A DNA stretch of 41,036 bases from a virus. A program made the translations under genes and the position numbers. Position 1 is the stretch's first letter. Each line of letters opens with the position of its first letter. Where the stretch lies: IMG/VR virus record IMGVR_UViG_3300026519_000022, positions 1-41,036 of that record. One strand, written 5' to 3'. Shown one piece after another: positions 11,789 through 41,036 of the stretch. Under the pieces are notes generated by a model. The model was not told where the DNA came from. It worked only from the letters and a program-made list of their open reading frames with translations, and searched no databases.

Positions 11789-12211
11789 TTATTTTCTACC
11801 CTTTATATACGGGTTGTTTTTACCCGTCCTGTTTTTACAGTATTCTATAAATCTGGGCGCATTAAGATTTTCTTTTTGTGTCCCCCAGTAAAGATTGTTT
11901 GGTTTATTATTTTTGCCGTTTTCGTCAATATGCAGTGTTAAATTTTTGCCCGCCGGGGCTGCACCGTGGAACGCTTCACATACCGCACGATGTACTTTTA
12001 TGTTACCATAAAATTTATTATAAACGCCCATATATACGTGTTGTGCGTTTTTATGCGCTTTGGTAACGCAACCGTAGGTTGGCTTTGGTTTATACACGCG
12101 AATACCGCCATTCGGCATTTTAGCTGTTCTTTCTGGAAATAATATTCGACCCCAAGACGAGGCAACCACGCCCGGTAGCGATGGCACAGGCTTCCAAATT
12201 TCATCAATCAT
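11789..12211 (-). CDS. free-standing HNH homing-type endonuclease with NUMOD4 domain
   Basis: This 140-residue protein begins with a NUMOD4-like DNA-binding module (EIWKPVPSLPGVVASSWGRI, residues 4-23). An HNH nuclease core follows: H74 in KVHRAVCEAFHG, then LTLHIDENGKNNKPNNLYWG with H94 and N106 as likely catalytic residues. Such proteins cut DNA and spread as selfish genes. It sits between the small zinc-protein gene and the clamp-like gene, and it has AAGGA plus its own consensus-like promoter immediately upstream (12237-12264). Both support a late insertion into the replication operon. No intron is evident in neighbouring genes. Confidence 0.85.
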   Translation of the reverse strand: MIDEIWKPVPSLPGVVASSWGRILFPERTAKMPNGGIRVYKPKPTYGCVTKAHKNAQHVYMGVYNKFYGNIKVHRAVCEAFHGAAPAGKNLTLHIDENGKNNKPNNLYWGTQKENLNAPRFIEYCKNRTGKNNPYIKGRK

Positions 12212-21564: not shown

Positions 21565-21855
21565 ATGGCTAATCCAGTAGGATTTGATGGGGCCAATACA
21601 GTGTTCCGCGCCCCGGATGATGAAGAAAATTGCGTTGACCTAGAGGCGCTTAGGCTTGACAGTGAAATAGTTTCGTGCTGGCGCTTGACAGATGAGGAAT
21701 TAACCAACATTCAGAAAACGGGTGTAATATGGTTGTCTGTGCTTGGTAAGCAAATGCCAATGGTGTTAGTGTCAGGGGGCAATTATGTTGAGATGGGGGG
21801 TAAGCCCGCCGTGGCTCAACCCTACATCAAACCAGCCAAGAGAAGCAAAACATGA
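21565..21855 (+). CDS. conserved-looking phage protein, 96 residues
   Basis: A strong AAAGGAG precedes the ATG. The central segment SCWRLTDEELTNIQKTGVIW, followed by LSVLGKQMPMVLVSG, resembles a small protein that recurs in phages, usually beside nuclease genes and without assigned function. The C-terminus is basic and proline-containing. It overlaps the VRR-NUC gene by four bases (ATGA), implying coupled translation. Function unknown. Confidence 0.7.
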   Translation: MANPVGFDGANTVFRAPDDEENCVDLEALRLDSEIVSCWRLTDEELTNIQKTGVIWLSVLGKQMPMVLVSGGNYVEMGGKPAVAQPYIKPAKRSKT

Positions 21856-22826: not shown

Positions 22827-23711
22827 ATGAAAGAACTATTTCAAGAGCTAAACTTTAGGCCGAATACCCTAGAGCGTATCGAAACGGCTAACGATATTAT
22901 CGAAGAATATCAAGCGGACGGGCTACGACTGTCGCTGCGACAGTTGTACTACCAGTTCGTAGCGCGTGGTCTATTGGAAAACACTAAGAAGAATTACAGC
23001 GCTCTAGGCGACACTATATCTAAAGGGCGTGTATCCGGTCTTATAGACTGGGACGCTATCGAAGACCACGAACGTTACCTACGCGGGCGTTCTAACTGGG
23101 CTAGCCCCGATCAAATGTTGCGGTACCAAATGCGACAATATTCTATCGATATGTGGCGCAACCAAGAAGTACGCCTTGAAGTATGGATAGAAAAGAACGC
23201 GCTTATAGGTGTTATCGGTGGCACATGCCGGGCGAACGATGTTGATTATTTCGCCTGTCGTGGGTATGCTTCACAGTCTGAATTGTACAAGGCTGGTAAA
23301 CGCATTAAGCGCCGGTACGAAGAAGACGACCAACATACCGTAGTTATCCACTTAGGCGACCACGACCCTAGCGGGCTGGACATGACGCGGGATAACCTAG
23401 AAAAACTATGGATGTTTAGCGAAAGCGACCCAGAAGTACGTCGCATAGCTTTGAACATGGAACAAGTCGAACAGTACAGCCCACCACCTAACGTAGCTAA
23501 GGAAACAGACAGCCGGTACGGTGCTTACGTAGACGAATACGGCGAAATGTGCTGGGAACTGGACGCGCTAGAACCGCGCGTTATGACGAAGCTTATTCAG
23601 GATACTATCGACGAATACAAAGACCCGGACATATGGCAGGAGAGCGAAGACGAATTACAGGACGATAAAAGCCTGTTGAATGAAGCTTTAAACCATATGA
23701 ACAGTATTTAG
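22827..23711 (+). CDS. Spo11/topoisomerase VI subunit A-like protein with TOPRIM domain
   Basis: The N-terminal region (to about 85) reads as a winged helix containing LSLRQLYYQFVARGLL, with R38 and the paired Y41-Y42. This resembles the R-x-x-Y-Y motif that carries the catalytic tyrosine of Spo11/TopoVI-A. A TOPRIM-like core follows: E122 in LEVWIEKNAL and D178-x-D180 in HLGDHDPSGLD, matching the D-x-D-P-x-G metal site of those enzymes. The protein has 294 residues, shorter than TopoVI-A (about 360-390), and no GHKL ATPase B subunit is encoded in the window. Related lone A-like proteins in phages are mostly unannotated. It may cut or bind DNA during replication or recombination; activity is unproven. 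The next gene begins one base after its stop. Confidence 0.75.
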   Translation: MKELFQELNFRPNTLERIETANDIIEEYQADGLRLSLRQLYYQFVARGLLENTKKNYSALGDTISKGRVSGLIDWDAIEDHERYLRGRSNWASPDQMLRYQMRQYSIDMWRNQEVRLEVWIEKNALIGVIGGTCRANDVDYFACRGYASQSELYKAGKRIKRRYEEDDQHTVVIHLGDHDPSGLDMTRDNLEKLWMFSESDPEVRRIALNMEQVEQYSPPPNVAKETDSRYGAYVDEYGEMCWELDALEPRVMTKLIQDTIDEYKDPDIWQESEDELQDDKSLLNEALNHMNSI

Positions 23712-38753: not shown

Positions 38754-39144
38754 TTTAGACCGCGCACTTAAGCGAACAGTGAAAAACATAGTTGTTAACA
38801 CAAACAACACCACAAAGGAAACAGCTTTTGAAATAGTGCGCGTTCTTATCCCTGCTACTCCAGTTGATACGGGACTAGCCCGGGGTAACTGGCAGGGCAG
38901 TTTGGGTGGGTCAAATAGTGGTACTGTGGATACCAAAAGCAAGGAATCACAACGACAAGTTCGTAGACTATTAAATGTTATTAAGGGGAGAAAAGAAGGA
39001 CAATCAATCCACATAAGGAATAATCTACCATACATTAAACCGCTAAATATGGGGCATTCTAAACAAGCCCCGGCTGCATTTGTTGAATTAGCGGTAGAGA
39101 CCGGACGTAGGAAAGTTAAAACAGCAAAGTTGCTTAAGAAATGA
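38740..39144 (+). CDS. HK97 gp10-like neck/tail completion protein
   Basis: It starts with GTG after AAAGG. The 134-residue product fits the HK97 gp10 family: a first helix (LKRTVKNIVVNTNNTTKETA), then IPATPVDTGLARGNWQGSLG with the conserved 'P-V-D-T-G-x-[AL]-R-x-[NS]-W' core, and NNLPYIKPLNMGHSKQAPAA resembling the 'Y-A-x-x-x-E-x-G-T...A-P-x-G' segment. These proteins usually lie among the neck genes. Here the gene sits between the tail chaperones and the tape measure, overlapping both. Confidence 0.8.
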   Translation: MKLIDLDRALKRTVKNIVVNTNNTTKETAFEIVRVLIPATPVDTGLARGNWQGSLGGSNSGTVDTKSKESQRQVRRLLNVIKGRKEGQSIHIRNNLPYIKPLNMGHSKQAPAAFVELAVETGRRKVKTAKLLKK

Positions 39145-41036
39145 CCACAGAACATATTGAGATTGTCGTAACTGATAAGGGTACTAAGATAGTACGCCGC
39201 AACATTGAGACTATAGGTAAAGCGTCCAACAAATCAGCTAAAGATATTGGTAGGCTTAATAGCGTTCTTAGGAGCGTTAAGGGTAGCGGTGTGGGTAGGG
39301 CATTAAGTCGCAATATTTCCGATGTTGGCGTGGAAGCGCGCAAAAGTGCGTCGGGGGTTAATTTGCTTAGGGGTGCTTTGGGTGGGCTTAGTGTAATATT
39401 TGCGGGCCGCGCATTAATCAACTTGGTTGATACGTATGCTAACCTACAAAATAGGTTACGCCTTGTTACCACAGGTACAGAAGATTTAGCGAACGTAACA
39501 GAAGAATTATTTGGTATAGCACAACGTACACGCGTTGGCTTTGAAAGTACAGCAGACGCGTATAGCAAGATTATCACTGTTTCTAACTCGTTGGGCGTAT
39601 CGCAGAAAGAAACCCTAGAATTTGTTGAAGGACTTAACCAAGCTATTGTACTGTCTGGTGTTAGTTCCGATCAGGCCAGCGCCGGGTTGCGCCAATTCAT
39701 ACAGGGCTTTGGTAAGGGCAAACTGGATGGGGACGAACTTAAATCAACCGTTGAAAATATCGCTGGCGTGGCCGATGTGTTGGCTAAACAATTAGGCGTA
39801 ACGAGGGTAGAGTTAACCAAAATGGGCGAAAGCGGGGAAATTACAAGTAAAGTAATGCTAGAGGCGTTTTCAAATCAACGCGCGGAATTAATAGCTAAGT
39901 TTGCTAAGACGATACCCACGATAAGCCAAGCTATGACAAATCTAGGTACTGCGATGCTTAAATATATTGGTCAAGTTGATCAGGCTGCGGGGGCCAGTAG
40001 CGTATTAGCGCAAGCCATACTATTAGTGTCAAGAAACTTGCATATCATTATACCGCTTGTTGCTTCACTTGCCGCTGTGATCACGGTCAACCTAGTTGTA
40101 GGGGCGTTGGGGGGCCTGAAAAAGAACTTACTTTTAGCTGTTGTAGGACTAAAGAAATTCGCCGCCGGTGTCCTTATAGTGTCGCGGGCTATCAAAGTAT
40201 TGACGCTAGCGCTGGCTAGAAACCCATTTGGCTTATTGCTAATCATACTCACCACGTTCGCTGCCACCCTTTTAACCATATCGGGCAAATGGGAAGCATT
40301 TGTAGACACAATAATAGGGTATTTGCGCAAACTGAAAGATATTTTCTTTAATGTGTTTGGTTCTATAGCCGAATTCTTTGGTTTTAAGGCCAAAGAAATT
40401 GATAGAACATTTGACGCGCTTTCTTCTAGTGTTAGTAGTCTTGTATCCGATACGATTGACAGTGGCAACGCTGCGTCGGATGCGGCCAACAAAGCGGAAC
40501 GAGACGCGGCTAGAGCATTGAGGGCAGCGGAAAAGGCTAAGAAGGCTTCTATCGCCGCTAATAACTTCACACAGAAGAATAATTACGACCAACGTAGTGC
40601 CGTCAAGGGTGATAATTTCACTACTGTGGGTAATGGCATAGATAATAATACAGGCGTGCAGAACGATGATTTTACTATTACTGGCAGCACAGCAGGAAGT
40701 ATATCAACGGATAGTGGCGACAATGGTCGGTTCTCTACAGACGGTGATTTTACTGGCTCCACACAAAAGCGAAGCGGTTTTAAGTCATCAGGCAATCATA
40801 TCAAGGATTTATTATCTGGTTTCAACGCGCGTTCATCGCTTACTGGTTACGCTAACGGAGGTTCGTTTCAGGTAGGCGGTAACGCGGGGGTTGATCAAAA
40901 CGTGCTAAGTATCAACAACACACCTGTAGCACGAGTAAGCCGGGACGAAACTATTAACGTAGTACCGGCAAGTAGTGGTAGTAGTAGTAGTAGTAGCGGC
41001 GTGGGTGGCAGTAGTGGCGGGGGTGGGAATGCAGGC
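39141..41036 (+). CDS. tail tape measure protein (continues at 2-256)
   Basis: It starts at the ATG overlapping the gp10-like stop and is open to the window end; continuing at position 2 gives about 671 residues. The N-terminal half is helical with the lambda-type tape-measure domain (ALINLVDTYANLQNRLRLVT, then RVGFESTADAYSKI and GKLDGDELKSTVENIAG, MGESGEITSKVMLEAF). Two hydrophobic segments (IIIPLVASLAAVITV; FGLLLIILTTFAATLL) may insert in the host membrane during DNA entry. A low-complexity Asn/Asp/Gly/Ser region follows, then a YANGGSFQVGG-type C-terminal domain. The short length predicts a tail of roughly 100 nm, using about 0.15 nm per residue. Confidence 0.92.
   Translation, partial: MTTEHIEIVVTDKGTKIVRRNIETIGKASNKSAKDIGRLNSVLRSVKGSGVGRALSRNISDVGVEARKSASGVNLLRGALGGLSVIFAGRALINLVDTYANLQNRLRLVTTGTEDLANVTEELFGIAQRTRVGFESTADAYSKIITVSNSLGVSQKETLEFVEGLNQAIVLSGVSSDQASAGLRQFIQGFGKGKLDGDELKSTVENIAGVADVLAKQLGVTRVELTKMGESGEITSKVMLEAFSNQRAELIAKFAKTIPTISQAMTNLGTAMLKYIGQVDQAAGASSVLAQAILLVSRNLHIIIPLVASLAAVITVNLVVGALGGLKKNLLLAVVGLKKFAAGVLIVSRAIKVLTLALARNPFGLLLIILTTFAATLLTISGKWEAFVDTIIGYLRKLKDIFFNVFGSIAEFFGFKAKEIDRTFDALSSSVSSLVSDTIDSGNAASDAANKAERDAARALRAAEKAKKASIAANNFTQKNNYDQRSAVKGDNFTTVGNGIDNNTGVQNDDFTITGSTAGSISTDSGDNGRFSTDGDFTGSTQKRSGFKSSGNHIKDLLSGFNARSSLTGYANGGSFQVGGNAGVDQNVLSINNTPVARVSRDETINVVPASSGSSSSSSGVGGSSGGGGNAG
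40901..41036. repeat. terminal overlap, right copy
   Basis: It repeats positions 1-136 with one silent difference (G at 41027, T at 127). See the left copy; together they close the genome at about 40,900 bp. Confidence 0.9.

Follow-up and report, generated by a model that had tools for sequence, protein, structure and literature searches.

Top6A and Spo11 are regarded as requiring a B-type partner to control cutting, and Topo VIII includes a B part that bears a GHKL ATPase. Cleavage by Top6 is controlled by ATP-driven closure of the B subunit together with an R102–E342 clasp (PMC13040014). Mini-A proteins, encoded by bacteriophages and archaeal viruses, are truncated homologues of Top6A (PMC7614492), a definition credited to Takahashi et al. 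2020 in PMC7614492, PMC8185306, and PMC11302465, and one of them, “Pseudomonas phage NP1 Mini-A,” is drawn in Figure 4 of PMC7614492. Archaeal Topo VIII and Mini-A are without characterization according to PMC8185306, and the reviews found discussing Mini-A report no biochemical characterization. The protein analyzed here is encoded in the window, the whole 41,036-nucleotide stretch of IMG/VR record IMGVR_UViG_3300026519_000022. It is assigned to Mini-A, in family and in catalytic type, with a probability of roughly 85%; the Mini-A family has been described previously, and the window adds one member. The features discussed are as follows.

22827..23711, plus strand: Mini-A-type Top6A/Spo11-like protein, 294 aa (ORF, family match, fold, conservation)
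22827..23150, plus strand: predicted winged-helix (5Y-CAP-like) domain, residues 1–108, containing the invariant R38 and the candidate catalytic residue Y42 (AlphaFold2, VIA-align)
22938..22952, plus strand: codons of the R38-Q-L-Y41-Y42 motif (R38 and Y42 in 176/176; spacing as in methanogen Top6A R102/Y106)
22950..22952, plus strand: codon of Y42, presumed nucleophile (176/176 homologues)
23169..23618, plus strand: predicted TOPRIM domain, residues 115–264 (VIA-align to 1d3y_A)
23190..23192, plus strand: codon of E122, TOPRIM acidic residue aligned to Top6A E202 (176/176)
23358..23366, plus strand: codons of D178-H-D180, TOPRIM DxD aligned to Top6A D254/D256 (both D 176/176)
23556..23558, plus strand: codon of E244, within the C-terminal W-E-L-D-A-L motif; may correspond to Top6A E342 (identical in 176/176 of the main family)

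The open reading frame opens with ATG and comprises 294 codons. R38-Q-L-Y41-Y42, E122, and D178-H-D180-P-S-G occur within it in type IIB order, at the positions where an initial annotation of this DNA had read R38-x-x-Y41-Y42, E122, and D178-x-D180-P-x-G in the order used by Spo11/TopoVI-A. PHROG 6247, “DNA topoisomerase,” matches the protein (E 1.6e-104) and, alone among families, covers every one of the 102 sequences in the deep alignment. Pseudomonas phage NP1 encodes a 300-aa homologue that shares 42% identity with the window protein over 97%; the NP1 record labels this homologue “hypothetical” and gives the name “putative DNA topoisomerase” to a separate 63-aa ORF. The 300-aa protein is presumably the Mini-A drawn in PMC7614492 Figure 4. 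An archaeal plasmid protein labeled “Topo Mini-A/DNA topoisomerase VI” shows 30% identity over 89%. Homologues of the family were found in phages and plasmids, the phage hosts being very different. Thus named and related, and in keeping with the fold and residue conservation given below, the protein bears out the earlier description of a stand-alone, Spo11/TopoVI-A-like protein of Mini-A type.

Generic models of type IIB enzymes recognize the family poorly. The 294-aa protein itself matched no type IIB model in Pfam, including TP6A_N and TOP6A-Spo11_Toprim. Among its relatives DUF2399 was the commonest match (best E 1.6e-4), followed by TOP6A-Spo11_Toprim (1.6e-3) and TP6A_N (0.024); such bit scores as were given lie below the curated cut-offs (for a type IIB model, 16.4 bits against a 24.1-bit cut-off). 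NCBIfam has no family for the protein, and sequence-only searches for type IIB PDB entries returned none with phmmer (single protein) or hmmsearch (two family profiles). Profile–profile alignment with methanogen Top6A by hhalign was not significant (probability 1–3%) and nonetheless paired TLR-[QE]-LYY, E122 with E202, and D178/D180 with D254/D256, in order. The profile comparison with TopoVI-A that had been proposed as a check therefore succeeded in pairing the correct residues but not in reaching a significant probability. Top6A was matched by a profile built with one true Top6A among its sequences, a result discarded as circular.

To examine residue conservation, 176 homologues were drawn from phage records, IMG/VR contigs, and prokaryote genomes. 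All 176 share R38, Y42, E122, D178, D180, and E244, and Y41 is variable, with Y in 162, F in 7, H in 6, and A in 1. With Y42 invariant and Y41 variable, Y42 alone qualifies as a nucleophile candidate, and by sequence it is likely the nucleophile. The expectation that Y41/Y42 and D178/D180 would be conserved was accordingly borne out for Y42, D178, and D180, but not for Y41, with its 14 substitutions. Column conservation across this alignment averages 59% and reaches at least 99% in just 26 of 294 columns, so that the catalytic set lies where constraint on the protein is strongest. R38, Y42, E122, D178, and D180 also remain invariant in a broader alignment with archaeal and Streptomyces plasmid relatives (24–31% identity), from which Top6A was excluded. 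Methanogen Top6A sequences contain R-x-x-Y-Y with the same spacing (R102…Y106), plus E202, D254, and D256, which are the catalytic residues named for M. mazei Top6A (PMC13040014). By motif spacing and winged-helix alignment R38 matches Top6A R102 and is read as its counterpart. The main family also has a conserved C-terminal motif, W-E-L-D-A-L, containing the invariant E244, which is not conserved in plasmid relatives. A C-terminal motif is reportedly what sets Mini-A apart from Topo VI, Topo VIII, and Spo11 in Takahashi et al. 2020.

The AlphaFold2 model, built from a 102-sequence alignment, consists of a winged helix and a TOPRIM domain (mean pLDDT 96.1, pTM 0.90), consistent with a truncated Top6A homologue that retains both domains in 294 aa, as compared to 369 aa for methanogen Top6A. 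Foldseek found nothing in the PDB at E ≤ 0.001 and nothing informative among viral models, with no clear full-length relative in BFVD; the structural ranking thus depends on a second look with VIA-align. For the TOPRIM region (residues 115–264), the best PDB row was 1d3y_A, a Topo VI A subunit (Z 12.2, 138 residues, 2.8 Å), followed by MksG (Z 11.5), M. mazei Top6A (11.3), JetD (11.0), and Top6A 2zbk (10.8). Two small stand-alone TOPRIM proteins scored 10.1–10.3, Spo11 PDB chains 9.6–9.5, and unrelated Rossmann-like rows began at Z ∼8–9. The winged helix (residues 1–108, modeled alone with pLDDT 89) again returned 1d3y_A as the best row (Z 7.7, 69 residues, 2.4 Å), with generic winged helices at 6.8 or below. 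Residues 11–82 align with 72–143 of 1d3y_A, and because these ranges are of equal length and ungapped, Y42 falls on residue 103 of M. jannaschii Top6A, the established catalytic tyrosine of that protein. A Z of 7.7 is weak by itself; what makes the case is that 1d3y_A ranks best in both independent domain searches, with the catalytic residue in register. The proposed superposition of wHTH and TOPRIM on TopoVI-A thereby gave Topo VI-A as the best PDB match for both domains.

The presence of JetD and MksG among the nearest folds, together with DUF2399 (a JetD-type domain) as the commonest Pfam match in relatives, is what would be expected of a nuclease of JetD/MksG type, in which the TOPRIM domain hydrolyzes DNA without a tyrosine intermediate. 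However, MksG is without a tyrosine at the 5Y-CAP position (PMC10123090), at which Y42 is invariant in all 176 homologues here, and this disfavors such a nuclease. No SMC-type JetABC subunit was present among the window proteins examined by profile. PADLOC returned weak JetD echoes only, in relatives. We consider hydrolysis of this type quite unlikely, and a tyrosine-dependent Mini-A enzyme the preferred assignment.

A B subunit was sought as HATPase_c (PF02518), HATPase_c_3 (PF13589), and Topo-VIb_trans (PF09239) in 44 phage and IMG/VR records carrying the family. None of the three exceeded its cut-off in any of the 44 (the window and 43 others, some of which may be fragments), in agreement with the earlier observation that no GHKL ATPase gene is visible in the window. 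Positive controls performed as expected, with 14 genomes matching both ATPase families and four archaeal controls matching the transducer. A PF02518 match at 39135–39338 of the window (E 8e-5, 18.2 bits against a 26.4-bit cut-off) was rejected as chance, as it contains an internal stop and lies in the tape-measure frame. The most frequent neighboring family occurs in just 22 of 158 loci, so Mini-A has no obligate partner encoded next to it. Separately, in an archaeal MAG, of Candidatus Methanimicrococcus (locus L160, genome G028), Mini-A is present and a TOP6A-Spo11_Toprim match is absent, the latter being found in 37/41 genomes sampled from the family of this archaeon; its absence is likely due to MAG incompleteness.

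That the phages encode no B subunit, and that bacterial hosts have GHKL topoisomerase subunits, would fit a protein that borrows a host B-type subunit (e.g., host GyrB or ParE) to form an ATP-driven topoisomerase. GyrB and ParE, however, have their own TOPRIM and partner with GyrA/ParC, and the spread of homologues over phages with widely differing hosts speaks against a single fixed partner from the host; borrowing is accordingly judged improbable.

For a Mini-A protein acting by itself, the mechanism may be pictured by analogy with Top6 and Spo11. Two copies would pair through their TOPRIM domains and grip bent duplex DNA in a channel. Each winged helix would then use its Y42 to attack one strand, assisted by Mg2+ held by E122, D178, and D180, and the product would be a double-strand break with covalent 5′-phosphotyrosine ends. 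Dimerization, chemistry, metal use, and biological role are all inferred. Lacking a GHKL B subunit, the enzyme would have no ATP-driven strand-passage gate, and would either cut and reseal, relaxing or decatenating DNA weakly and without ATP, or leave Spo11-like breaks. Reversible cleavage, with replicating or supercoiled phage DNA as the likely substrate, is favored over permanent breaks at about even odds.

The gene lies in a ∼41-kb siphovirus-like phage. Paracoccus phage vB_PmaS-R3 is collinear with the window (terminase 78%, PolA 71%, clamp 61%, and Sak4 69%). Besides PolA, a clamp, and a Sak4-like annealing protein, the window encodes a primase, a helicase, a Cas4-type exonuclease, and a DUF669 protein (putatively SSB-like, by position). 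The Mini-A gene sits between the primase and endolysin genes, with gene order as in R3, which upholds its earlier placement in an early region. R3 itself lacks the Mini-A gene; its equivalent interval, from a VRR-NUC/small-gene pair to a DUF7303 gene, holds unrelated genes, while R3 otherwise shares the window's set of replication and recombination genes. Absence from a syntenic phage marks an exchangeable early accessory gene rather than a core recombination function, and this accessory status speaks against the gene being essential for replication in phages of this type. A promoter and terminator scan near the Mini-A gene gave no excess over shuffles.

Other features of the window differ from R3 or bear on the contig. 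R3 has a putative HD-domain gene between clamp and helicase, a slot occupied in the window by an HNH endonuclease (PHROG 959); a homologue of the R3 HD-domain gene (45% identity) lies on the other strand in the window, near the Mini-A gene. The coordinates of this HNH/HD-domain rearrangement are 21565–21855 (plus strand) and 11789–12211 (minus strand), and the R3-type HD-domain gene seems to have moved between slots of the two genomes. The contig ends (1–892 and 39135–41036) appear to lie in or near the tape-measure gene, and collinearity with R3, a circular record of 42.1 kb, points to a circularly permuted genome that is close to complete.

The initial annotation had proposed that the protein makes or holds double-strand breaks for phage recombination, a role that is plausible. 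In its Spo11-like form, the protein would stay covalently attached after double-strand breaks, either starting recombination through the phage Cas4-type exonuclease, SSB-like, and Sak4-like proteins or cutting host DNA. The complete Spo11/Top6A catalytic set is conserved, Sak4 and a Cas4-like exonuclease are encoded in the window, and no ATPase is present to drive strand passage. Nevertheless, R3 manages the same recombination genes without Mini-A, no recombination gene is consistently found in homologue neighborhoods, and Spo11 itself requires B-like partners (PMC12203943). Permanent break making is thus regarded as a possible but doubtful account. The accessory genome position and JetD-like fold could also suggest a catalytically dead DNA-binding or decoy protein, such as a JetD mimic blocking Wadjet; this is extremely unlikely, given that the catalytic residues, which a purely structural role would not need, are all strictly conserved.

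Mini-A relatives also occur on plasmids. In PLSDB, relatives occur in 46 records, 38 of them plasmids of Streptomyces or Kitasatospora, and the relatives on these 38 are divergent (23–30% identity; hits H63–H104, loci L238 and L240–L245). Of seven plasmids opened, six are linear and one circular, and in two cases opened a terminal helicase gene is close to the Mini-A relative. Relatives lie closer to plasmid ends than expected (median 0.28 of half-length; KS p = 5e-4 versus uniform) over 36 records, which include some near-duplicates and at least one circular plasmid. Some plasmid relatives (L242, L244, and L245) have Q at the E244 position, in T-Q-A-E-A-L. E244 is a possible counterpart of Top6A E342, and if the two do correspond, these relatives would amount to naturally occurring equivalents of the cleavage-prone E342Q mutant. 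Mini-A could, further, be a self-sufficient, ATP-independent type IIB enzyme, in effect a B-less Spo11, whose Y42-dependent breaks would be used for recombination or for the DNA ends of phages or linear plasmids. We hold this to be rather unlikely; were it true, the lean toward Streptomyces plasmid ends would reflect a role at or near telomeres.

Interest lies in the biochemically uncharacterized family, and not in an unusual locus. A widespread phage family with a full active site and no partner offers a simple test bed for a bare cutting module, and possibly a model for how Spo11 departed from topoisomerase chemistry. The window and R3 form a syntenic pair of phages in which one member has the Mini-A gene and the other does not.

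Compared with known systems, the protein shares with Topo VIII the character of a type IIB enzyme of mobile elements (PMC7614492), whereas the B part and GHKL ATPase of Topo VIII are absent from the window. With JetD/MksG of Wadjet/MksBEFG it shares the TOPRIM fold (Z 11.0–11.5) and a DUF2399-type sequence echo; those proteins, in contrast, are members of SMC complexes, and MksG is without the winged-helix catalytic tyrosine (PMC10123090). Spo11 resembles it in TOPRIM fold (Z 9.6), in catalytic logic, and in that strand passage is not expected, but is eukaryotic and meiotic and acts in complex with B-like proteins. The Topo VI A subunit (1d3y, 2q2e, and 2zbk) has the same two domains, active-site residues, and R-to-Y spacing, while the phage protein is ∼75 aa shorter, with no Top6B partner and no significant profile match. 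Closest is Mini-A of Pseudomonas phage NP1, assuming that the 300-aa NP1 protein is the reviewed Mini-A: it is alike in length, in winged helix and TOPRIM, in the R/Y/E/DxD set, in being virus-borne, and in having no B subunit, and it differs in nothing essential, the divergence between the two lying within the spread of the family.
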